From: Sinohyriopsis cumingii
Taxonomy: Eukaryota > Mollusca > Bivalvia > Unionida > Unionidae
Reading direction: 5' to 3'
Length of the DNA stretch: 64,000 nucleotides
Assembly (NCBI GenBank): GCA_028554795.2
Contig: CM068842.1
Location: forward strand, 23,346,590-23,410,589
A model generated the notes under the pieces. It worked only from the letters and a program-made list of their open reading frames with translations. It searched no databases and was not told where the DNA came from. Positions within the stretch are counted from its first letter, which is position 1. Every line of letters begins with the position of its first letter. Both the position numbers and the translations under genes were made by a program. Below are positions 5,040 through 63,412 of the stretch, in pieces.

Positions 5040-8000
5040 CTGCAAGACAAAAAATGTTGATTGTAAGTGAGGAATTTGCCAAGTTTTCTGTCACTTTTAC
5101 CAATGAATTCATGATTCATGTCTGTTACTTACCTTCCAACCTTTGAAACTGCAAAACTGGCATGCAAACCAGAAGTGCATGTGTTTTGGTGGATGGAAAA
5201 GACAGGGATACAAACAATGAAGCCACTGAAATTGATTTTTATTACTTTAAATGCTGAATACAATTTTTTCATTGCTCTCCAATGCTTTCCCATAGTTACT
5301 CCAGCATAGCAAATGGCAATATCCATCCTACAAACCTTGCATCGAGCTTAACTCGCTCATAATTGAAAACTGTCTATGACATCTATAAACATACTAGCTT
5401 AGAAGTCCCTGTGTTTCTGCTTACCTTTTGCCTTTGCACTTTATTATCTTCTGATGAGGCATCTTATCTGAACTTTTTTTAAAAGGTGTACGACTTTTAA
5501 GTTTTATCCACATGTGATGTAACTATCAAAACATAAAGCAAATACGAATGACAATTCTTGTTTGCAGATCCATGTACAAGATGAATGGAAGTACATGTGT
5601 AAAATAAATAGAAATCCATGTGCAAGATGAATGGAAATTCATGTAAAAGATAAATGGAAATCCATGTACAAGATGAATGGAAGTCCATGTGTAAAATAAA
5701 TAGAAATCCATGTACAAGATCAATGGAAAAGTGTAAGATAAATGGAAATTCATGTACAAGATAAATGGAAATACATGTGCAAGATAAATGGAAATCCATG
5801 TACCAGATAAATGGAAATCCATGTAAGAGATAAATGGAAATCCATGAACCAGATAAATGGAAATCCATGTAAGAGATAAATGGAAATCCATGAACCAGAT
5901 AAATGGAAATCCATGTCTAAGATAAATGGAAATACATGTGCAAGATAACTGCAGTCATGTGATTTCTTATAAGTCAGTGTTATAATGAAAGAATGAAGTG
6001 TTTGTAGTAAGATTTCAATAGGAAATATGATGTCAAAGAAAATAAACACTGTCTGGCAGGAGATTCACTGTTATTAATTTATGTTTGAAACAGTCAATAA
6101 AATAAACACTATCTGGCAGGAGATTCACTGTTATTAATTTATGTTTGAAACAGTCAATAAAATAAACACTGTCTGACAGGAGATTCACTGTTATTAATTT
6201 ATGTTTGAAACAGTCAATAAAATAAACACTGGCAGGAGATTCACTGTTATTAATTTATGTTTGAAACAGTCAATAAAGCTCAAAATCAGAATTTAGAATG
6301 ATGGATGAAAGATCAAGATGATTCCAACGGAACTGGAAAGGTTGGCAGGTATGATATGACAGCAGAAGTGAACCAGTAACTAAACTGCCACTCACTCAAA
6401 TATCTGGTATCTGCTAACATGAACACTGCAAAAAGAATCTGGGCCTAAAGCACAGAATTTTAGTCATTCTACAGTAGAATCGGACAACAGCCACAATATT
6501 TTAAAACTGGTAGCTAGGGGAATTCATATAACAAGTGAGGCAATCTTTAAGAAATAATGGACCAGAAGAGTAGATGAATCTGTTATATGATAACTGTTCC
6601 ACTCACCCAGATGCCAAATGCCCTTTAAGTCACAAAGTAAAACTTAAAAACTGTATATCAGCCCCCACTCCCACCCACCCCCAATCTCCCAGACACGGCC
6701 TCTTGATCAAAGGACTTAACATTTAAGATGAAAATACAAAACTTCTGAAATCTGTGCTGAACAGTGAAAATTCATTAACACATATACTGAAGTTGAACTA
6801 GAAGGAGGTGAGGTATCCTCGCAAAAAGCAGACATTTTCACTCCAAATAGCATACAGATATGTTGGGAAATGGAACTGAACGAATGATGTTGACTGAGGC
6901 TAAAGCTGTGTACTGAGAGAACATCTGAAATCACTAAACAATGTTTAGCAATGGATTGATGAGGACTGTCTAACTGTTCAATGTGAAAATGATACTAAAA
7001 CTGTCTCATTTTTCTAAAGCAACAAAAAAATAAATAAAGGAGAGATCCCAGTCTACAGCAAGCCCTTTCTGGTGGCATATTAAGACTGGACAAAGAACTA
7101 ATGTGCCTAGAAAGCCAGGGCAGTCAGCCATACAAATTTTTAGGTATCAACATAAAATCACAAAATACTTGAAGGAATACACATCATGCATGTGAACAAT
7201 GCTTGTTCTGTTTGGTTCAGTACTTTCTGCAAACAAAAGTGCCTTTTTTTGGATATCACTGACTTTCAAATGTATTGCACATAATTTGTTATTTCTAATA
7301 TTGTGTTTTAGAATCACACAAGTGTGTTGTACATTGTGTGACATCACTCTGTTGCTGTTCAGCAGATGCTCTGAATTAAAGACAAGATATTTACACGACA
7401 TAAATTACAACATTACTTGTTGCACTCCTTTACAGATGAAGGTTCCTTTAACAGCAAAAATGTGTCTAGAAGTGGTAAATACGAGATCTGATGGGGCCCC
7501 AAGTGGCCGAGTGGTCTAAAGCGCTCACCATTACAGATCACTACCATCTCACCTCTGTCTGTGTGAGTTCGAGTCTCAGGCTTGGCTAACGTGGGTACAT
7601 GAGAAAGCCTGCCAGTAGCTTCTCGTGGGTTGGTGGTTCTTCCCGGGTTCTTCCTCCACCAATTATACTGGCCGCCAAGAATAGCCTATCTTGTGCTGAA
7701 AAATGGCGTTAAACCCTACAACAACAACAACGAGATCTGAACTCTTTAACAGCAAAATATGTATAGAAGTGGTAAATACCAGATCTGAACTCTTTAACAG
7801 CAAAATGTGTCTAAAAATGGTAAATATGAGATCTGAACTCGTTAACAGTAAAATGTGTATAGAAGCGATAAATATGAGATCTGAACTCTTTAACAGTAAA
7901 GTGTGTCTAGAAGTGGAAAATACAAGATCTGAACTCTTTAACAACAAAATGTGTCTAAAAGTGGTAAATATGAGATCTGACCTCTTTAACAGTAAAATGT

Positions 8001-11000
8001 GTCTAGAAGTGGTAAATATGAGATCTGAACTCTTTAACAGTAAAATGTGTATAGAAGTGGTAAATACCAGATCTGAACTCTTTAACAGCAAAATGTGTCT
8101 AAAAGTGGTAAATATGAGATCTGAACTCTTTAACAGTAAAATGTGTCTAGAAGCAGTAAATATGAGATCTGAACTTTTTAACAGTAAAATGTGTATAGAA
8201 GTGGTAAATATGAGATCTGAACTCTTTAACAGCAAAATGTGTCTAAAAGTGGTAAATATGAGATCTGAACTCTTTAACAGTAAAATGTGTCTAGAAGCAG
8301 TAAATATGAGATCTGAACTTTTTAACAGTAAAATGTGTATAGAAGTGGTAAATATGAGATCTGAACTCTTTAACAGTAAAATGTGTATAGAAGTGGTAAA
8401 TATGAGATCTGAACTCTTTAACAGCAAAATGTGTCTAAAAGTGGTAAATATGAGATCTGAACTCTTTAATAGTAAAATGTGTCTAGAAGTGGTAAATATG
8501 AGATCTGAACTCTTTAACAGTAAAATGTGTATAGAAGTGGTAAACATGAGATCTGAACTCTTTAACCAACTAATTACCTTCAACATGTTGAGATAGACTG
8601 GGTCAAGTGTGACAAAAATTTAATGATATTTTTTCCTTACAAGTGACTGATGTTTTCATAAATTTTAATTCATTTAAAACTTGATGGCAATAGAACTGTT
8701 GATGGCAAGGATGGTTATTAAATAACACTAGTCACAAGATCTATCAAATGAATGACAATATGGATCAAAAGAAAACATGAGTAGTATTACCATATTTCCT
8801 CTGTTGACGGTTACCGTTTAAGAGCAGTTTTTTGCCCAAAATACTATTTTCTTGCCTTGTAATACTCCAGCATAGTTTCAAAATAATTTTATTTACGTAT
8901 GTTTTTTCAGACACAAAATATAACTCTGTAATTACAAGAAAAGATAGATAAACATGGCTTTTACAAAGTTGGGAAAAAGCTTGCTTGTAATTATCACTGA
9001 TAATTCACAATCATAATCCAAATTAAAATAAGTTAGAAGAACCGCATTTCAGTATTTATTATCTCACTGACACTAATATAACAAATAAATTACTAAACTG
9101 TGGATACAAAAAAATCGTAAACATGAAGCATCAGAAGGTTCACACTTTATTAAAAGTGATAAGCTGTAAAGTGCATGTCTTCATCTTGTACAGTTTGTTT
9201 AATACCACCAGTGTGGATCAACCTGCATCTTGTTATCAATATAGCCTTTGATTTCAGTGAACAATACATTTTATAAACAAAAAGCGAACAAAGATTTCTT
9301 TTTTCATTTTATATATTAGGAACTATTAAGTATTAAAATATAATTTAGTTTAATATTAGTTTTACAAACGTTTTGGCACCAGACCACATCAGTAAATGAC
9401 TGGGTGCATGTTTTAGTCTTCTACACAAAGGATGTGTTAAACAAACTTTTCCAGCCGACTTTTATTACAACAGTTTCCTCCTTTAATAAAAGGTGGAGCA
9501 TTCATCTTCCACTTTTACAACTAAGATTTTCTATTTACAGGTGAGTGACATGTTTTTAAAAAATAAAAATGCTCTTTGTCATATCAGCATCCATGACATA
9601 ATCTTCAGTTAAACGTGCTTCTCCCAATTTTCAAGTTTTTAGTCAAATGTAATATGTTAAGATATTTCTTGACAGAAACATCAACTTTAATTGTGCCATC
9701 TGACGACATGCAGAAAATACTGTATTTTCTTTTAAAAAACATTACTGGACAAAATTACAGCACAAATAGCACATAAACTAGGATTATTACTACATGTTTG
9801 ACTGGCATTTTGTTCACCACTAGCCCCATACATGCCTTTGTATTATAATCTTTAATTCTTGCTATACTGTGGTTTGGTGCATAATGCAGTTGGGATTTAA
9901 TGACCCGAGTATTCTTTGTGCTTAACACAAGGGTTCTGAAAAATGTGGTGTCTCATCTTTTTGAAGTTTTTTTTTATGAATGATGGACTTGCAAAAAGAA
10001 CTGTTAACATGAAGCTAACACTACTGATGGAAAACATCATGCTCACAGAAAAAAATACAAGACAAAATATGTTGTTTTTACCTGTTTGTTTGACAAAGAG
10101 TCTGTCAATTTCAGAGAACTGAGATCAATGGAAAGAAACATTGGGTCAAGTTTCTTCACAGCTTCATGGAGGTCTTGAGTTGCTTTTTCCAGTCCTGTCA
10201 GCATCTGGTTGTAATGTTCGAAGGTAGGAGGCTGAAGTAAATAAAAAGGAAGTAAATTCAGTCTCATTTGCAATGATGCAGTGTGGTTTAAGCAGCATAC
10301 AACCAAAGAATCCTGTGTGCTCGACCTTTCATTGTTTGAGCATGAATTTCTAGTGGCATTTCATAGCTTTTGTTAAAGACAGCCAACTCATGGTGGCTCA
10401 ATGATTAAAGCTTTGGAAGTGGGACATCTATTGGTTAAAGCACTGGAAGTGGGACATCTATTGGTTAACACACTGGAAGTGGGACATCTATTGGTTAAAG
10501 TATCTGAAGCAGTCCTTCTATTGGTTAAAGCACTTGAAGTGGGTCATCTATTCGTTAATGCATTGGAAATGGGACATCTATTGGTTAACACACTGGAAGT
10601 GGGACATCTATTTGTTAATGCATTGGAAGTGGGATATTTATTGGTTAAAGCAGTTAGAGGTAGGTTATCTATTTGTTAAAGCACTGAAGTGAGTCATCTA
10701 TTTGTTAAATCGTTGGAAAGTGGGCCATGCATTCATTAAAGCAATGAATGTGGGCCATCTTTTATTAAAGCATTGGAAGTGGGCCATCTATTTGTTATAT
10801 CACTGGAAGTGGGCCACCAAAACGTACAAACTAAAAAGCAAAATTCAGTCATATTTTCATCCATATACCAATGATTAATCATTCTTACTAACAATGTGAT
10901 AGAAGTCCCTGATAAAGTAAGACTTTCTTGCCAGTGCCATGACAAACTAATACAACTGCATGTCATTCTAAATGGAATATGGGAAGAATAAATTTTTTTT

Positions 11001-22300: not shown

Positions 22301-23954
22301 GTGTTTCTCGATTAAAACACATCTGACGGTAGATCATAATTTTTTAAAATTGCTTCTGTTGTGGGTTGGTTGAGTTTGAAAGTGCCTTCCCCCCGGGGGG
22401 TATATGTTTTACTGGAACAGCCCTAATGGTGGCCATTTGTGTGGACTGAAAGGTTACATTCCAGGATACTTTCTGTCTGGTCTGGTCAAATTCCTCCATG
22501 AGTGATTTGGGAATATCATCATTTAAACTATTTTCTGTTATCTATTACAGATGCTTTTCTAATTTTAGATGGACTTATTAGGGCTGATCAGTGTAATTTT
22601 GTATGAATTTGAACGGTCCTCCTGTCATGATGCTTCTGTCACATTTAATCAAATTCTGTCAAGTGGTTATTGACAAGTTGTCTAAAAGGATTTTATATTT
22701 TTAGTAACGGTGGAAATGTCTGATGGTTTATCAACATCATCTGTACAAATTAAAGCTCAAAAGCCAGGATGTTCTGTGCCTATTTGGTCCAAGCTGGCTC
22801 AGTGGTTTTTGACAATACGTTAAAAATAACAATTTGCTGACAGAGGCATGTTGTGTAATACATGATGGATGCAGAGCCATGCCAAAATATTGTTCTTACA
22901 GCCAGGTAAGTTAACAAGAATTTCTCAGAGGGAATGACACTTTACTAGACAAAAAGAATTTCTGGAATTGAGATAAAACCATTTATTCTTTTAAATTACT
23001 GAGTGCTGAAACCATTTCAGATCCTGTAGTATCACTCATTTTTGTAGGGGACCAACTTTCATGGATTTTGATGTTACCCTGAGCCATGAATTTAAAGAGC
23101 CAATGAAAAATATGTGACCATGATAAATGACACCACCACCACTCATCTGTTTTACTGTGTTTCATTTGTAGAGATCAACAAGTTATTTCATTAATTTATG
23201 TCATTTCTACATTCTGGTTAAAAATATTAGCTTATAACTCAGATTAGTTTTATCTGAACCCTAAAACAATAATTATAAAGCATTTTATATTTTTCATTGC
23301 ACATATATCATAAAGGAATCTACTAGCTGTAATTTCCACTCACTGCCTTTACCTTTAAATCGATATGCTATGTGACAAGAAAGGATAGTGCGTATCAAGA
23401 AAAAGCACAAGGTATTCAAAAACTTATCACTGAAGATGAAATAAAGACATCATACAAAGTCTTTTATTGAAAACCCCATCTTGATATGGCCATCCATTCA
23501 GAAGGAGTAGTGACAACAAGATTTTCAAATGGCTGCTGTGGTGGCCATGTTTTAGCAGTGCCAGATTCTTTGAGGAGTATGTGTGTGTAAAGTTTCACAG
23601 CAATCCTCCAAGTTATTCGGAAGGAGGATCAGTAACAAACTGGAGCTAATGGAGGGATGAACACTGAACAATGGACATCCACCTTGACATCCCATAAGCT
23701 CGCAGAAATAATGACCGTAGAGATAAATTAAAAAAAACAACCGATATTTGGATACAACTTTAGACTCATTATAGCATCATAACAAGCAATTGCTGTAACT
23801 TACCTCTGCACACAATACTAGGTTCTCAAAAGCATCTGCATTGATGCAATGGCCATTTTCTTGTTCTCTGACTAAGCTACATTTATGTTTCGTTACCAAT
23901 CCTGCAAAATAAAAAGAGCTCATGCATTTCTTTTCAACATTCACAATATTGTAC

Positions 23955-24006
<52 letters not shown>

Positions 24007-27000
24007 CGTTTAGGCTCTTACCAAATGTAACCAGACAAGAGTGAAGACAACAATCTTGTAAAATTTAACAAATATTTTATTTCCCTAGAAAAACAAGGTA
24101 AAAATGAGAAAAAAACTTACGGCTCCATGAATCAGACCCAAAAATAATCAAAGAATTAAAAAATAGAAGTCCTAGTAATTAAATTGTCCTTATGAAACTG
24201 AGTTTGAATCCTGATGAAATCCAAAATGGAAGGCAGTGATGTATGCTGTGGTCAGCAACATACTGATGTGTCATCAGTTCTTTGTTGAATCATAGAAAAT
24301 AATATTCCAGTGTTTGAATTCTGTATAAATTTCTATAACTTTGCCTAATAATGAATTTAGAGCACAAGTATTTCCAGGGAAAAATAATCTCTTGGAATTG
24401 AAATAATTTGAAGAAAAATTAAAAATTCAACTCAAACTGGTCACAAAATTAACACCTTTAAGTGTCAATGGTTTAAAGCATGACTGACTAAATTCTCTAC
24501 AGAAAACAGTTTTACACTAATTTAAGATGCAAAACAGATTCCCGTATGAGGTCACATGACCACCTGTCTAGAACACAAACTTTTAATATGTCTAACATCA
24601 TGTACTCCAAGTATGGCCTTGACTAAAACCAATGATTTTACTTCAACTCTTACTGATTCTGAATCAAGGTCAGGAACTAGGTCAGCATTAGGTATTATTT
24701 TGTGTTTACAAAAAAGAGTCTGGTCAAACCGAATTTCTGGAAAATCCAGTAAATAAAGTTACATTACAATAGCATGTAAAGGAATAATTTTTTCTTAAAA
24801 CAAACAAACAATTAAATGAAATCAAATATAAATCAAGTCAAATATATATATATCAAATATATACACATACATACACACACTCACTCCTGGTATATCCTAT
24901 TATGTCTTTTTCTATTAACAACTGCGAAAGCATAGGTATTGATCCCCATCTGTAACAATCCACCCTTTACTGTGTGCATCTGATCTGACCAGATTCTGAA
25001 GCACTAGAATGTTTTGTCATTTTATTTTTAAACCCTAGCAAAATTAGTGTTTGTAAAATATATATCCCCTTACTGCAAACTATACAGTCTGTGTTTAAAC
25101 GCTATAATAACTTTGAAAAGTCTATAAAATTTGCATGAAAATATATTCTATGCATATGCATAGAATATAGAGCATCCACCTTAGATGTGGGAGGTCATGG
25201 GTTCGATCCCCGACTGAGTCATACCAAAGACTTACATAAATGTTACTAACAGCTGCCTCACTTGGCACTCTGCATTAAGAGGTTAGTGTTAGGACGGGTC
25301 TACCTGGTGTCAGGATAATGTGACTGGGTAGGATATCATGCTTATGTCTGGGGCATGATGCCAAAATGCTAGACATTACTATAAATTGACACATTGCAGA
25401 CACTGTAGCAATATGACTGATTTTTTTAAAACCTACGTTAAAAATCAAAATCACACATTTACAGACACACACTCTTACACAGACTGGGTACAACTTTTTG
25501 TCATAATCACTATTCCTGTCTGTTGCAATACTAAACAGCTCAATTTTCATGGCTTCTGCAATTTTAAGTTAAGTATCTTCTGCTAAACACCTAACAATAT
25601 TAGATGATTTTGTTCTTGCACATGTATATTTTCTGCAATTTTGGAATCAGGAAACATCCATTTGAACAAAGGACCAATGTAGTCTTCTACCACAAAGGGT
25701 AGTCTATATTCTATTAAGAACTCTGTAGATAATGTCTCTGCATTTATAAAATTTGTGTCCACAATTTAGTTCTGCTGTAAATAAGAAATTACCTTAGTAC
25801 TGGAGTTAGTAAAACGAGCTAATTCAAGGTTTCTTTGTTTTAAATCCATGACCAATATTAAAATCCTTTCCACGCAGCCTGCAAGGGGCATCAAGCTGCC
25901 TCTAGAATGGAACATTGTATTGTGTAATTCATGTATTCATCTATGAATCAGTTTCTTGTCTTTTCCTAATCCATCTGTGAAATTATTTGTAAAATATTTT
26001 TGCTCTAACATGCGCATAGACTAGAATAAATTTGACTTGACTTTTAGTGCCAAATACCTACAGACTAATTCTGTACCAGATATGAATTAGAACAAAGAAT
26101 CTGCAAGCAAAGATTGTTGTTGTTGTTGTGGGGTTTAACGCCATTTTTCAGCACACGATAGGCTATACATGGCGGCCAGTATTAATGGTGGAGGAAGAAC
26201 CCGGAAAACCCCGGAAAGAACCACCAACCCACGAGAAGCTACTGGCAATTTTCTCACATGCCCACATTGGCTGAATCTTAGACTCGAACCGCCGCAGACA
26301 GAGGTGAGATGGCAGTGATCCGTAACGAAGAGCGCTTTAGACCACTCGGCCACTCGGGGCCCCTTCAAGCAAAGATTAAAAGTGAGAAAACCAGTCTGTC
26401 TTCTCCTAACTAAGCCACAGAGCTGCTATAAATAGAAACCGAGGTCAAAAATTTAAAGTAGAAACCAGCATGTTTCTTGGAAATAGGGTAACTGCTATAA
26501 ATAATACTGTTAGGAAAGTACACGCAAGTCTTTATACAAGCATACTCGTATGTCATAGTTACATACAAGCCATCTGTTAGAATATGGTCTGTGTGATTAA
26601 AGGGATGTTGGGGGCTGGGGGGAGTTAGTAAACATGAGAAAACAAATTAATTTTTTGGGATAAGGATATACTGAAAATGCCTAATCTGAATACAGGTATG
26701 CCTAAGGTGTAATTTAGTGAAAAGAAAGTGTAATGATTACGCCAAAATGGTTGGCATGTATGACTTTGCTCCTCTAAGTTCGTACTCATGGAGGTCTTAA
26801 AAATGACTTACCTTCTAATAAACTTGGTACAAAAGTTTTGAGCTTTTCTTCCTTCACACTTTCTGTTTTATCTAAAATGAAATTATAAACTGTGACTATA
26901 GGAACATTCTTTCCATACTACAAAAAACTAGGTTTTTATTTTTGTAATACATGTCACATGGTTAAACAAAATGGTCCAGGTTAATAATTCAACAATTAGA

Positions 27001-30000
27001 AACAAATTGAAAACAAGCCCTAACAGCATGAAACTCTAATCAGACCACTAACATAAGCACACACAAAATTTCATCTGTCTACCTCAAGTGGTTTTTGCTT
27101 AATTGTGATAACAAGTTTGAAATCTGTATATACAAAAATTAGTCCTAGCCACAAAAATTAAAAATGCATAAACAAAAGCAGATGAAATAGTACCCTGACC
27201 CTTGCTGAATAATCATCTAAGCTGACCCAAGTAGAGTATGGCTGACTTCAGCGATTATTGACCTATATTTCCCAATGACTAGGCCTTTGGTCAAAGTATG
27301 TGGTCTTCAAGTAAATGATCAACAAAGGTCAAGGACAGTTGGCAGGAGGCTTAGGGGAGAAACCATTTTCAACTCATGGCTACGAACTCAGACCTACTGA
27401 CCCCAAAACTGACAAGTACCTTTCTTGTTTCAAATGAATGCCATCCACAAGGTTTGGCTATGATTTAAGGCAAATGACTCAAATTATTTTATGGAAACTG
27501 TTTTCCTTCTTGAAGTTCCTCTGACCCTGATCTTTGATCTTTTAACCCCAAAATTATAGGGGTCTTTCCTCTGCAAGCCATCTACAAGCTTTGGCTAAGG
27601 GATGTGGTACATAATTTAATTATCCTAACAGAAATATTTTCTATATTTGGAAGCCTTTCTTCATAATGTTTCCAAGAAAATCTTTACCTTCATATCTGTA
27701 GACTTTACCTTTTGATCAGCACCATACAGATAGTACTGTGCTGATGTGCCAGTAAACCCTATACATACTATGCTTATATACAGTCCCTGTGACCCTGACC
27801 TTTGACCTCCTGACACAAAATGGAATGCATCTGCTCCTTTCAAATTCAAATTTAAAGTTTGATCAAAGTAGGTGAAAAAGAACTGAATGTGTTGAAACTA
27901 TTTTCCTTTCCAGCCACTCTGGCTATGACCTTTTGAAACCAAGATCACTAGGTACCTTTCTTATTGCAAATGCAAGCCTTATATAAATTATACAGGTATC
28001 TGATATACAATGCATGTTTAACTTCTTTTAGTCTCTGTAAAATTAATCTTGGACTCTTTATGCAATCATTATGCTTCTTTCTTGCCCCAAAAATAAGGTA
28101 CTTACAAAGACGCAACAGTATATAATGGAGAACTCTTGTTACTGTGTAGAAACAAAACAGGGAACAGACAGACAAACATCATAGCATGGGATGGTGGGCA
28201 TATACAAACTGAGAAATTATTGTAATGGCATTAAAATCGAAACTGGTCGTAAGTGTGTAAAATTAAATGGCTTAATCAAATGGATTCAATACAGGCATAC
28301 AGATGCCTATGCCATTTACCTACCATGTCCTGGCATAAAGCATACTGTCCAAGATTTGATACATGCCTCTATCACAGTTCTGTTCTGTACTGGCATACTA
28401 TCTAACATTCTACACTTGCCTATGCCACTGTCCTATACTGTACTGGCATACTAACATTCTATAGATGCCTATGCCACTGTCCTATTCTGTATTGGCATAC
28501 TAGCATTCTATATTTGCTTATGCCACTGTCCTATACTGTATTGGAATGCCTAACATTCTATCCTTGCCTATGCCACTGTCCTATTCTGTACTTGCATACT
28601 GTCTAACATTCTATACTTGATATGCCACTGTCCTATACTGTACTGGCATACTATCTAACAGTCTATACTTGCCATGCCACTGTCCTATACATTAATGGCA
28701 TAATGTCTAACATTCTATCCTTGCCTATGCCACTGTCCTATACTTCAATGGCATAATGTCTAACATTCTATCTTTGCCTATGCAACTGTCCTATTCTCTA
28801 CTGGCATTCTGTCTAACATTCTATACTTGCCTATGCCACTGTCCTATACTGTACTGGCATACTAACATTCCATACTTGCCTATGCCACTGTCCTATACTG
28901 TACTGGCATACTGTCTAACATTCTATACTTGCCTATACCACTGTCCTATACTGTACTGGCATACTGTCTAACATTCTCTACTTGCCTATGCCACTGTTCT
29001 ATACTGTAATGGCATAATGTCTAACATTATATCCTTTCATATGCCACTGTCCTATACTGTACTGGCATACTAACATTCTATCCTTTCATATGCCACTGTC
29101 CTATACTGTACTGGCATACTGTCTAACATTCTATACTTGCCTATGCCACTGTCATATTCTGTACTGGCACACTAACATTCTATACTTGCCAATGCCACTG
29201 TCCTACACTGTACTGGCAAAATGTCTAACATTCTATACTTGCCTTTGCCACTGTCCTATACTGTACTGTCATACTGTCTAACATTCTATACTTGCCTATG
29301 CCATTATCCTGTAGTGTACTGACATACAGTACATTGTCTAACATGCCTAAAAGCAGCTTGTGGTGCTCACTTTGTAGATATGTACACAAACGAGTTCTAA
29401 AGGCCATCTGGAAAGGATACTGAAAATAAATGAAACATACAGCCTTGATTATTTTTTCTTGCTTGATTCTCCATCACTGCATGTAAGATATAACACTTTT
29501 GATAATTAATAGGTATATTTGGATCTACCAAAGATTTGTTTGAAAGTTTACCTGATGGTGAACGAATAAAAAGTGGACATCAGAGACAACTTTATTCAGG
29601 TAAGCTCACAGATGGTAAGTGATTTTTCCTAGGGTTTTGAGAAAGATGGAGCCACACACAGATGGATATTATCATAAAGGTATGTGGGGGGTGGGGGTGG
29701 GGGTGGGGGTAGCTTTTATGGGGTTGCAGTTTTTAAATTAGAACAATAGCATATTTTAAAAAAACAAATCAAACAAGTTACTGTCCCTAAGGAGAATGCA
29801 TTAAATATTTTACTTGTCTATTCAGACGAGTTCATTTGTATGAATAATATATAAAAGAAATGCTCCAATAACTGTTATACTGTGTACAATAAATTACAAT
29901 TCAACATTGTAAATCTGAACCTTTATGAGTGAAAAGTGATGATTTGACACATTTTTCAAAATTAAACAATAGTTCACTGAAGGGACTGAAACTGTACTGG

Positions 30001-33000: not shown

Positions 33001-36000
33001 GGGGTATAGCTGTCCATACAGCAATGATGATGCTGAATTATTACCGTGTGTAAACAAGGTTCTAAACCTATTGGATATGTTTGCAGGGAAAGTTAAGTCA
33101 TGCCCAGATGAATGCTTAATACTTCATGGTAGCAAGATTTAGAGTGTGCCTATTTCTTGCAGCCTTTCAAGACATTGGACCAAACATTCACAGCCCACAT
33201 TGCACACACGCTACAAGAGTGAGGAAGAACATTTTATGCAGGTCAGGAATGTTTCATATTTTTCCTCTGCAACTTTGAAGTGCCTGCACTTGCTTGTATT
33301 AGATTGACAGCTCTGTTTGAGAGAAGAAAAAAACAGGCAAACAAAAAATATACAATTTGTTTAAATAGGCAAACTTGCATTACTGAGAAAAAGTGCGTAA
33401 TAAACTAAAACTTAACAGCACAATACAATCATACTGGTAAAATATTGCATGGTAATGATCAATATTACAGGGACAATAACAACTAGTAAAAAAAATGCTT
33501 AAATGCACACAAAAATCATTGTGAAAAATACAGGATGTAAAGTTTGGCCATATTCTGTTTAGTGGTTTTGGAAAAGTATTAACAGTAACAGTAACTTTTC
33601 TATTTGTAGTTAATGGTTGTCATGTCTGATGGCAAATCAGCATTATCTGAACAAATTTGAAACAACTTCTAGCAAGAATGCTTTCCGTCAAATTTGATAA
33701 AAATTCTGTTCAGTCATTTTTAAAAATAAAATGGGCCTATTTGTTGAGTGGCATCATTTGTACAAATATGACAGTTTTTCATGCCAGGAAATGTTCTGTG
33801 CCAAATTTGTCAAACTGGTCTAGTGCTTTTTGAAATAGCCACTGTTGATGGATACATAAAGCACAACACACCATGCATAATGTAGTATGCATAAAACATG
33901 CTGGGCCATAACATCATCTCAATTGGCCTTAAGGGTTAATGGCAAGATAAAAAATCATAACATCATCTCAATTGGCCTTAAGGGCTAATGGCAAGATAAA
34001 AAATCATAACATCATCTCAATTGGCCTTAAGGGTTAATGGCAAGATAAAAAATCATAACATCATTTCACTTGGCTTTAAGGGTCAATGGCAAGATAAAAA
34101 ATCATAACATCATCTCACTTGGCCTTAAGGGTCAATGGCAAAATAAAAAATCATAACATCATCTCACTTGGCCTTAAGGCTCAATGGCAAGATAAAAAAT
34201 CATAACATCATCTCACTTGGCTTTAAGGATCAATGGCAAGATAAAAAATCAAAACACCATCTCACTTGGCCTGGTCAATGGCAAAAAATAAAAATCACAA
34301 CATCATCTCACTTGGCCTTAAGGGTCAATGGCAAGATAAAAAATAATAACATCATCTCACTTGGCCTTAAGGCTCAATGGCAAGATAAAAAATCATAACA
34401 TCATCTCACTTGGCCTGGTTAATGGCAAGATAAAAAATCATAACATCATCTCACTTGGCCTTAAGGGTCAATGGCAAAATAAAAAATCATAACATCATCT
34501 CACTTGACCTGGTTAATGGCAAAATAAAAAATCATAACATCATCTCACTTAGCCTTAAGGATCAATGGCAAGATAAAAAATAACATCATCTCACTTAGCC
34601 TTAAGGGTCAATGGCAAAATAAAAAATCATAACATCATCTCACTTGGCTTTCAGGATCAGTGGCAAGATAAAAAATCGTTAACATCTCACTTGGTCTTAA
34701 GGATCAATGGCAAGATAAAAAATCATAACATCATCTCACTTAGCCTTAAGGGTCAATGGCAAGATACAAAATCATAACATTATCTCACTTGGCCTTAAGG
34801 ATCAATGGCAAGATAAAAAATCATAACATCATCTCACTTGGCCTTATGGGTCAATGGCAAAATAAAAATTCATAACATCATCTCACTTAGCCTTAAGGAT
34901 CAATGGCAAGATATAAAAAAATCAGAACAACTTGGAGAATAATTACCTTTGGATCTTGTGACCAGCACTGATGAGATTCCAAGTGATTCTCCAGTTGGGA
35001 TTTCAGACTTGAACAAATCTCTGACATTGGCTTATTTGCCCCATTTTCCACGCCATTTTTCTCATGATTTTCAACATTAAGTTCCCGCCCCAAAATCACT
35101 GCAGCTGCCAGTATTCTCATCGTCAAATTCCTGACCTTCAGCCAGGCTTTCTACAAGAAAAGCAATATACTTATAATAAGTAAAGAATTTTACATGTACA
35201 AAAGTATCTGACCACTCAAAATCTTCAATATCATACAACACAAGTTATTTCTCTCACTTTCAACACTCCCAAAGGGTTGTTGAAAATTCTAAAATGAGTT
35301 ATTGCTTTCCCACTTTCAAAGGCAGCAATTATACCATTCCATTAGGTATGATCTGGTCTTTTTTAAGAGAAGTTGACTCTTAGCTGCTTATCAACTATTT
35401 CCAAATCTGCCTCATTATTTACTGACTAATACCAGTGAAACTACCTTAGGTATCTAACCCTCTCCTCTACTACTTATAATCTAGCCGCCACATATTGATA
35501 GGTAAACAAAGCTGCCACTTGCTGGGAGATTACAAGCTTCTTCATAGATATAACTGGATTAATTATACTCGCAGGCAATAAAAGGGATGACCTTTGAATG
35601 AGCTGATAGTGATAGAGTGCAGATTAATTTCCATCAAAACACCTATAATATAATAAAGCACATGGCCCACACCAGCATGCAGCGTCTTGTCTTTGTTGCA
35701 GGACAACCAGGATCTGATGGCAGTTCAACATTTCATTAACAATGGATAAGTTTTCAAAATTGCTTTGAGTAATTTTAATGGGATATCAGACAGGCTTTGA
35801 AGGTCAATTATTCTGCCATTAATATACATTTTCATTAATATGGTGGGAAGATATTTAAATTTACAATGAATGACTGGATAATTCTCACCTAACGTGTTTT
35901 ATTAATTTGAACCATGACATCATATAATTATCGGCCACCAAAGTTTTTTATGAATACCACTGCTATACTATTAATCTGATACATGAATACACTAGATTAT

Positions 36001-56929: not shown

Positions 56930-59195
56930 ACAAAACTTATCACTGGAGAGCAAAAAGTAGTCTTGTGACCGTATACTGTGATGATCACACAGTACATAAA
57001 AAAAATCAAGTTTCATGACTAAGAGAAAGAGATAAATACAAACAAACTTGAAAACAGAAGCACAAAAAATAGGCCACTGTCACCTCCTTTTGCCTATGGT
57101 GAGTAGCTCCCTCAAAGATGAATATATCTATAAAGTATTATGACTACCGCCAGTACATGCAACAGTGTCAAACCTTAACATAACCAAAGAAATGCAAATA
57201 CTAGGTCAGTGTCAACTCCATCTGCCTGTTTCATAACTGTACATACAAAAGTGTCTCAGAAAATGAGTTGAATGCAACAACAAAAACACAACCTGATCAT
57301 GCCAACTATTACAACAATAAATCCAAAGTGATACAGAATGACTTCTGGAAGAAACTGATCTGATATCATAAAACAAAAACACAGACACAAATATATGTCC
57401 AATCAGAATGAGACATTGTTGCTGCAGTGAAAAGTCAAAATCTCATTATCTTCAACTTTGGCCAACGAACTACAGCTAATTTTATTCTAGCATCAAGGTA
57501 CAAACAAAGACCTATAGACAAGGAATATGTTTGATGCTGATGCTGTAGGTATTACACCGGCCTAAAGACAAGGAATCTTCTTTTGTGATGATGCTTTATG
57601 TATTGCACAATAACTGAATTCTAATGGAATAATTTAGAAACATAAATTTTCATAAAATATTGAGCAAAATTTCATCATACCAAAACTATTAAACAGATAA
57701 AATCAATATGGTAACTTTTGAATACAGATTGAGACAGAGGTATCATCTAACTAAGTGACACAACTCTGACAATTAGATTCCCATAGCTAGTTACTTAAGG
57801 GTATAACTAAGCTCTGGTTGTATATGACCAATGCATACACACCTATCAATCAAAGTCAATGCAGAAAACACACCAAGAATATATTTTTCCCCCATATTTT
57901 TGAATACTGATAAGAAGCAAATATGCAGATTTGGAAATCCTATCTTGACAAATTCTGAGAAGTTTGTTCTAAACATGCTTCAAGACAGGTTACTGTGAAC
58001 TTACGCCATGATGGACTGTACCCACCACAACACATGCATGCATCAAGTTTACTCACTGTCAATAAAGAGAGAAATACAAATATACTTAACAGGAAAATGA
58101 AAATGTAAGACAGTGTCACCTTATTTTGCCGATGGTAAGTAGTACATACGCAAGTAGTACACTCAAAGGCAAATATATCTATTAAGTTTCAATACTATAT
58201 ACAACATCCTCTAACATTAACATAACCAATGAAATGCAAATACTAGGTCAGTGTCAACTCCATCTGCCTGTCTTTTAACTGTACATACAAAAGTGTCTCA
58301 TAAAATGAGCTGAATGCAACAACAAAAACACAACCTGATCATGCCAACTATTACAACAATAAATCCAAAGTGATACACAATGACTTCTGGAATAAACTGA
58401 TCTGATATCATTAAAAAAAAACGCAGACAAAAATTTATGTGCAATCAGAAATGAGACATTGTTGCTGCAGAGAAAAGCCAAAATCGCATTATCTTCAACT
58501 GTGGCCAACGAACTACAGCTAATTTTATTCTAGCATCAAGGTACAAACACAGACCTATAGACAAGGAATATGTTTGATGCTGATGCTGTAGGTATTACAC
58601 CGGCCTAAAGACAAGGAATCTTCTTTTGTGATGATGCTTTATGTATTGCACAATAATTGAATTCTAATAGAATAATTTAGAGACATAAATTTTCATCAAA
58701 TATTGATCAAAATTTCATCATACCAAAAATATTAAAGAGAGAAAAAGAAGACGGTAACTTCTGAATACATACTGAGAGAGAGGTATCATCTAACGAACAT
58801 TACTAAGTGAGGCAACTCTGACAATTAGACTCCCATAGCTAGTTACTTAAGGGTATAACAAAGCTCTGGTTGTATATGACCAATGCATACATACCTATCA
58901 ATCAAAGACAATGCAGAAAACACACCAAGAACATATTTTCCCCCATATTTTTGAACAACTGATAAGCAAAAATGCAGATTTGGAAATCCTATCTTGAAAA
59001 TTTTGAGAAGTTTGTTCTAACCATGAGTCAGGGTAGGTTACTGTGAACTTATCCGATAATGAACTGTACCCACCACAACACATGCATGCATCAAATTTCA
59101 TCACTGTCAGAGAAAGAGATGAATACAAACAAACTTAACAACAGGAAAATGAAAAATAGGACAGTGTCATCTCCTTTTGTCTATGGTGTGAATGT
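56930..59195. repeat. Left part of an array of about 1.04-kb units
   Basis: Two near-complete units (about 57,080-58,110 and 58,110-59,195) after the tail of another. Long stretches are nearly identical, such as ctacagctaattttattcta and gatgctgatgctgtaggtat. Shared small minus frames (HNSLV-free, MFRTNFS and MATVEDN types) are too short to be genes. Confidence 0.85.
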
Positions 59196-61510: not shown

Positions 61511-63412
61511 TGTTAGTGTGAACAGTGCCCTCTAAGGCAAGTATATCAAGTTTCATTACTACATGCAACAATGTCAAAACTTAATGTAACCAGTGAAATG
61601 CAAAAACAAGGTCACTGTCAACTCATTTTGCCTGTTTCATAACTGTACATACAACAGTGTCTGTGAAAAAGAGCTAAGTGCAAATATTTAACATTGATGA
61701 CCACCTATTACAGCAAAAATGCCAGCTGAAAAATAATACACAAGAATTTACAGAATACACTGATCTAAGATTTAACATGCTAGCACAGACACAAATATAT
61801 GTCCAATCAGAATGAGACATTGTTGCTGCAGTGAAAAGTCAAAATCTCATTATCTTCAACTTTGGCCAACGATCTACAGCTAATTTTATTCTAGCATCAA
61901 GGTACAAACAAAGACCTATAGACAAGGAATATGTTTGATGCTGATGCTGTAGGTATTACACCGGCCTAAAGACAAGGAATCTTCTTTTGTGATGATGCTT
62001 TATGTATTGCACAATAATTGAATTCTAATGGAATAATTTAGAGACATAAATTTTCATCAAATATTGATCAAAATTTCATCATACCAAAAATATTAAACAG
62101 AGAAAAAAAGAGGCAGAAGTATCATCTAACAAACCATACTAAGGGAGGCAACTCAATTCGACTCGCATAACTAGACACTTGTGAGTATAGCAAGTTCTTG
62201 TTGTATATGACCAATGCATACACATCTATCAATCAAAGACAATGCAGAAAACACACTAACAATATATCCTTTCCAAATTTTTCTTAACCTACAAATATGA
62301 AGCAAAAATGCAGGTTTGGTTATCCTATCTTGTACAGATATGAAATGTTTGCTCTAAACATGCTTCAAGGAAGGTTAATGTGAATTATGCCATGATGAAC
62401 TGTATGCACCACAACACATACCTGCCTCAAGTTTCATCACTGTCAGAGAACGAAATGAATACAAACATAAAAACAGGAGAATGAAACATTGGACAGTGTC
62501 ACATCCTTTTGTATATCGTGTGAACACAGCCCTAAAAGGTAAATATATCAAGTTTCATTACTACATGCACCAATCTCAAAACTTAATGTAACCAGTGATA
62601 TGCAAAACCTAGGTCACTGTCAACTTCTTTTGCCCATTTCATAACTGTACATATGAAAGTGTCTCAGAAAATGAGGTGAATGCAATAAAAAAACCTGATC
62701 ATGCCAACTATTACAACAATAAATCCAAAGTGATATACAAAGACTTCTGGAATAAACTGATCTGATATCGTAAAACATAACACAGACAAAAATTTATGTG
62801 CAATCAGAAATGAGACATTGTTGCTGCAGAGAAAAGCCAAAATCGCATTATCTTCAACTTCGGCCAACGAACTACAGCTAATTTTATTCTAGCATCAAGG
62901 TACAAACACAGACCTGTAGACAAGGAATATGCTTGATGCTGATGCTGTAGGAATTACACCGGCCTAAAAACAAGGAATTATCTTTTGTGATGATGCTTTA
63001 CTTATTGCACAATAATTGAATTCTAATGGAATAATTTAGAGACATAAATTTTTATCAAATATTGAGCAAAATTTCATCATACCAAAAATATTAAACAGAG
63101 AGAAAGAAGACGGTAACTTCTGAATACATATTGAGAGAGAGGTATCATCTAACGAACATTACTAAGTGAGGCAACTCTGACAATTAGATTCCCATAGCTA
63201 GTTACTTAAGGGTATAACAAAGCTCTGGTTGTATATGACCAATGCATACACACCTATCAATCAAAGACAATGCAGAAAACACACCAAGAACATATTTTTC
63301 CCCATATTTTTGAACTACTGATAAGAAGCAAATATGCAGATTTGGTAATCCTATCTTGGCAAATTTTGAGAAGTTTGTTCTAAACATGATTCAGGGTAGG
63401 TTACTGTGAACT
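61511..63412. repeat. Right part of the 1-kb array
   Basis: Two more units (about 61,511-62,520 and 62,520-63,412), at about 1.0-kb spacing. The last is cut by the LINE at 63,413. Confidence 0.85.

Follow-up and report, generated by a model that had tools for sequence, protein, structure and literature searches.

A minisatellite beside exon J of NAA25 in Sinohyriopsis cumingii, related to the end of the exon and carrying copies of a GC-type donor word

The NAA25 gene in the window

The window, by which we mean the whole stretch of 64,000 nucleotides analysed here, comes from contig CM068842.1 of Sinohyriopsis cumingii assembly GCA_028554795.2. Spliced protein-DNA alignment with human NAA25 placed the portion of an NAA25 gene that encodes the C terminus on its minus strand. 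The model has 15 exons, A to O, running from 54728 to 4920, and was obtained with the end of exon J fixed at 29295 and with donor sites blocked in four other arrays; the splice matrices are approximate. Exons A to O join into a single open frame with a natural stop. HMMER matched the encoded protein, from the last part of exon A through exon O, to chain residues 503-955 of PDB 7stx_B (NAA25) with an E value of 4.2e-71. Thirteen of the 14 donors in the model are GT, and exon J alone has GC. Exons after J placed at 22.5 kb and 18.9 kb were dropped, and spliced alignment gave exons K and L of Table 1 in their stead; chain scores built on the dropped pair are unreliable, the best chain having contained the short form of exon J once and the long form once.

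A small open stretch lies at 28106-28141, approximately 180 nt past the array described below, with an acceptor scoring 8.3, GTAAGT behind it and phase 1 both in and out. It stands outside the best model and is possibly a micro-exon without a place in it. Two forms of it as an exon, 28141-28106 and 28141-27956, were considered and set aside: across 18 settings the longer one joined the short-exon chain four times, always at gap 9/0.1, and the other best chains shown contained neither.

Table 1. Features of the NAA25 locus discussed in the text (window positions; a slash marks an exon-intron border)
Feature	Position	Strand	Details
NAA25 exon I	34947..35150	-	ends in phase 0, CCAAAG/GTAATT; donor score 7.9
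NAA25 exon J (long form, likely)	29296..29419	-	124 nt; phase 0 in, phase 1 out; acceptor ATTTATTTTCAG/TAT, score 7.8
Rival canonical donor in exon J, AAA/GTGAGC	29365..29373	-	intron would begin at 29370; phase 1; score 7.4
Exonic tail, diverged repeat unit	29296..29346	-	51 nt, 17 codons; score 53 against the unit consensus
Predicted exon J 5' splice site, TAG/GCAAGT, GC type	29290..29298	-	intron from 29295; phase 1, matching exon K; score 4.8
Second putative donor, AAG/GCAAGT (unit start 29242)	29237..29245	-	score 6.3, above the 4.8 of the predicted exon J donor
First in-frame stop of an exon running past 29296	29225..29227	-	in the frame of the run-on exon
Intronic minisatellite, 19 units	28320..29295	-	TRF, wrap-around alignment and unit alignment; each unit begins at the donor-equivalent position
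NAA25 exon K	26812..26871	-	phase 1 in and out; donor GAAG/GTAAGT, score 12.0; spliced alignment
NAA25 exon L	23804..23901	-	reads ...ADAFENLVLCAE; donor AGAG/GTAAGT, score 11.9; spliced alignment and HMMER

An intronic minisatellite and a copy of its unit in exon J

The sequence-only reading that preceded this work had described a tandem array downstream of exon J, and TRF and wrap-around alignment bear this out, with 19 units in the intron and one within the exon. TRF reported the array at 28340-29327 with a period of 53, 19.1 copies and 85% matches; the wrap-around alignment to the unit consensus omits weaker matches past both array ends. The 18 spacings between units are 53 bp in ten cases, 49 bp in five, 52 bp in two and 50 bp in one, and the last unit (28366-28320) is the sole one 47 long. 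Where unit lengths of 47 or 53 had been given, the spacings are thus mostly 53 and 49; neither of these is a multiple of three, so the earlier conclusion that use of downstream copies would usually shift the frame stands. With the copy at 28932 as reference, at least 89% identity is reached by 16 of the 18 remaining intronic units, and the final two have 83% and 62%; diverged end units are usual in such arrays. Both end units begin GCATG. Rfam gave no match at the gathering score, and no relatives were found in viral contigs.

The tail of exon J is a clear, if diverged, member of the same repeat. It scores 53, where the highest score was 40 among 2000 dinucleotide shuffles and 35 among 7375 other tiles of the window. 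It is 53-72% identical to the 19 intronic units. What had been called the last third of the exon amounts to 51 of 124 nt, or 41%. The opening 73 nt of the exon were also considered as an additional unit, which was rejected: they score 11, and 1906 of 2000 shuffles score as high. Since the exonic unit occupies 29296-29346 and the array runs on from 29295, the repeat abuts or overlaps the 3' end of exon J; with an exon end at 29371, 24 nt would separate it from the array.

Another array, at 33907-34932 with a 49-bp unit, lies close behind exon I in the preceding intron of NAA25. It contains 17 donor-like words, 13 of the form CAA/GTGAGA and four TAA/GTGAGA, the CAA form scoring 7.5 against 7.9 for the exon I donor. 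Both this array and that of exon J thus lie just behind an exon and carry donor-like words, but the former starts inside the intron and its unit is unrelated to exon I: the last 40 nt of exon I score 8 against it, 1000 of 1000 shuffles scoring as high, and similarity to its unit begins approximately 11 nt into the intron. Nine arrays entered a clustering test, picked from TRF with neighbours merged, two edges extended and short two- to four-copy arrays omitted. Four of the nine lie within 200 nt of an exon where 1.92 were expected, which is not significant (p 0.10).

Elsewhere in the window, TRF found a 51-bp two-copy repeat at 57511-57608, 58547-58652 and 61915-62012, and its presence at three places suggests a larger dispersed repeat. 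A 48-bp array at 7666-8619 forms one long open frame on the minus strand, 48 being a multiple of three.

The predicted end of exon J and its donor

Three phase-1 donors come into question as the end of exon J: CAAA/GTGAGC at 29370 (7.4), TTAG/GCATGT at 29346 (2.2) and ATAG/GCAAGT at 29295 (4.8). We refer to the exons that they define as short, middle and long. The long exon ends as the sequence-only reading had claimed, in ATAG/GCAAGTATAGAATG, and is favoured by homology. Against NAA25 in PDB, HMMER gave 243.3 bits with the long exon J and 226.9 with the short one, a difference of 16.4, and under its own gap costs it aligned the repeat-like tail without a gap from YPF into exon K; the exon J peptide YPFQMAFRTRLCTYLQSEHHKLLLGMLDNVLYVSTLQDNGI is likewise ungapped against NAA25. 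With exons K and L in place, in the spliced alignment at gap 11/1 and an intron penalty of -38, the long, short and middle ends scored 162.7, 152.1 and 141.4 half-bits, and a free run at the same penalty picked 29295.

The exon may instead be only 49 nt long and end at the GT donor at 29370, in which case the array would be an ordinary intronic one starting 24 nt into the intron, with its GC words there by chance. This donor is the top-scoring one in the exon (7.4 against 4.8), has a fitting phase and is of the normal GT type; of the 3765 minus-strand GT sites, 98 reach this score. It was used in a free run at an intron penalty of -30, the chain of which contained spurious exons. In a sensitivity test of 18 settings, with the array after exon I blocked, the long end beat the short one in all six settings at gap 11/1, whereas the short end won in all 12 settings with cheaper gaps (12 of 18 overall), with margins of 0.8 to 9 half-bits. 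In all 18 the middle end came last. A short exon would also find a parallel in the preceding intron, where the array begins 14 nt (our own bound) or 27 nt (TRF) after exon I. Against it, the short form loses the 16.4 bits and drops 19-25 residues from a 454-residue alignment that elsewhere has gaps of only 1-3. At gap 11/1 its best chain takes a weaker acceptor for exon K, at 26889 (2.8) rather than 26871 (4.2). It leaves unexplained a AGGCAAGT word in fitting phase, and pairing with U1 is weaker, with duplex energies of -4.6 kcal/mol for the GT donor at 29370 and -7.7 for the GC donor at 29295, the exon I donor having -6.6. We consider the short exon, with an unrelated array behind it, unlikely.

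In favour of the long exon, with YPF fixing the register, the 25 residues past the GT donor score above 98.2% of 8992 intronic 25-mers (BLOSUM62), and their hydropathy correlation of 0.46 exceeds that of 98.8% of intronic 25-mers. Against it stands the low identity of the tail to human NAA25, for which permuting the residues gave p 0.07 for 17 residues and 0.025 for 25. The case for the long exon also depends largely on sparing a deletion of 19-25 residues; as the GT end is slightly preferred with cheap gaps, we regard the long form, with its GC donor at 29295, as likely but not proven. The predicted intron after exon J would then be of the GC-AG kind, with the donor TAG/GCAAGT and the acceptor ATTTCATTTTAG/ATA, a reading that homology favours and that the GT donor slightly overtakes when gaps are cheap. 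GC-AG introns account for less than 1% in model organisms (PMC7072748).

Given an exon end at 29296, which homology favours, exon J's own donor lies within the repeat and recurs in its units. The word is a GC-type donor, not GT: unit starts read GC in 16 of 19 cases, GA in two and TC in one, and none reads GT. The exact word AGGCAAGT stands at 8 of the 19 unit starts, the predicted exon J donor counted. In the whole window its minus-strand occurrences number eight, always within the array, and its plus-strand occurrences three. A donor score of at least 4 is reached by 11 of the 19 unit starts, so the earlier statement that most units carry a splice donor is true by this looser count and fails for the exact word. 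Donor words scoring at least 4.75 have a density of 10.3 per kb in the array of exon J; outside arrays the density is 4.38 per kb. Among the other eight arrays, one each has 16.6 (the array after exon I), 6.4 and 1.2 per kb and five have none; the figure of 16.6 means that a donor ladder is possible without an exonic origin. At the far end of the array, at 28318-28326, lies a strong canonical donor word, ATG/GTAGGT, which with a score of 8.3 and a U1 duplex of -10.4 beats exon J's own.

Proposed origin of the array, predicted use of its donors and known parallels

Since the tail of exon J aligns to NAA25 without a gap, it would seem that the tail came first and that the array was derived from it. 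The proposal that the array originated at the exon-intron border thereby gains support from HMMER homology in one genome, by way of the exon end. Homology would thus favour both that end and a direction from exon to array. In one alignment a unit consists of 42 nt that resemble the final 49 nt of the exon and of 11 nt from the beginning of the intron; an alternative sets the exon's own TAGGCA against the unit start. As the two differ, the exact duplication break is not fixed. The retention of GC in 16 of 19 units, with GT in none, indicates that the GC state of the donor probably predates the expansion.

The order of events may also have been the reverse, with an exon that ended TTTTAG/GCATGT (29346, phase 1) and only afterwards took in the first unit of an existing array, gaining 17 codons. 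The boundary of repeat similarity does fall at this second AG/GC word, in the same phase, and it is the end units that both start GCATG. This end nonetheless fared worst in 18 of 18 spliced-alignment settings, and with the tail included HMMER needs no gap from YPF to exon K. We therefore hold that an array captured by the exon is very improbable.

We propose instead that exon J ends at the GC-type 5' splice site ATAG/GCAAGT and that approximately the last 49 nt of the exon, with the first 11 nt of the intron, were duplicated in tandem. The copies would have expanded to 19 intronic units, settling at 53 or 49 bp, and the exonic copy would have diverged on its own because a stretch of NAA25 is encoded there. 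A duplication across the border would explain why each unit begins at a copy of the splice donor. The first, productive donor would most likely be the one mostly used; splicing from a unit donor further downstream would give the message one or more extra units and a premature stop, and its destruction is expected. The donor copies would then be passive decoys left from the birth of the array, and not an isoform switch. As a whole, this account of a GC-donor exon, a border duplication and passive decoy copies is the one that we favour, with moderate confidence.

Splicing from the second donor, at 29242, adds 53 nt and shifts the frame, which brings in a stop 395 nt ahead of the final exon junction. 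A stop so placed is a usual target of nonsense-mediated decay. The remaining 17 unit starts all lie past the in-frame stop at 29227-29225, including 28932, 28830 and 28419, the unit donors that add a multiple of three. The intron holds about ten predicted donor look-alikes whose use would break the message; as to which donors are used, and the decay of their products, we infer both. The copy-number-dependent protein isoforms suggested from the sequence are thus not supported. Only three weak GT words ahead of the in-frame stop, at 29274 (2.2), 29238 (1.4) and 29229 (2.1), could extend exon J in frame, by 21, 57 or 66 nt. On these words one might argue that the array donors yield stable, functional isoforms, but as they sit in units one and two their use would be independent of copy number, and the unit donors that preserve the frame stand behind the stop; we find this extremely improbable. 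Pfam scans of the read-through frames gave no match, nor did early PDB searches.

A regulatory role for array length is conceivable, in which U1 would be shared among one productive and approximately ten unproductive donors and the length of the array would set the amount of surviving NAA25 message. The next donor has a higher score (6.3) than the predicted exon J donor (4.8), and stops follow from splicing at the unit donors. In human ABCA7 an array of this kind leads to retention of a unit and to messages of that type, and array length is associated with lower expression (PMC5954066). The same paper reports, however, that unit retention was unchanged with array length and that it was skipping of exon 19 that changed. 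In the NAA25 units, 16 of the 59 substitution cells fall in the eight donor columns out of 53, which makes 2.0 per donor column where the others have 0.96 (p 0.039 by permutation, on 18 of 19 units with the last omitted). The excess points to decay of the donors and is weak, since related units are not independent. We think it decidedly unlikely that array length sets the message in this way. That the array is a length-tunable brake, each added unit providing another GC decoy that leads to decay and NatB dosage varying between individuals, is more doubtful still.

Among the matches listed, the literature held nothing on this locus or on such an array in a bivalve, which is no proof of absence; searches for NAA25 with bivalve or with minisatellite returned only titles on another subject. 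Donor-copying arrays are known from at least two human genes. The minisatellite of IFI6 (6-16) reportedly has a unit of 12 bp, much shorter than that of NAA25. It supplies several splice donors, with two downstream repeat units used, and its variants encode different protein isoforms, unlike our reading of NAA25 (Turri 1995, as cited in PMC4526556). The other gene is ABCA7 (PMC5954066): a 25-bp array in intron 18 lies beside exon 18 and includes the exon's donor, each unit begins at a donor position as in NAA25, and retention of one unit causes a frameshift and premature stop, as predicted for the second donor of NAA25. ABCA7 has a GT donor and a shorter unit, whereas NAA25 is predicted to have a GC donor and has units of 53 or 49 bp; the passages of PMC5954066 considered here describe no coding tail within the unit, whereas in NAA25 the putative founder copy is visible in a coding exon; and in ABCA7 splicing was measured, whereas for NAA25 it is predicted from the sequence.

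If our account is true, the NAA25 array is evidence that duplication across an exon border can give rise to arrays of this sort, and its units offer a natural series of near-identical competing donors in which to ask how the spliceosome picks the first. The array would be a good example of the kind already known from IFI6 and ABCA7 and not a new kind; what is distinctive in it is the predicted GC donor, the length of the unit and a putative founder copy that is still visible in coding sequence.
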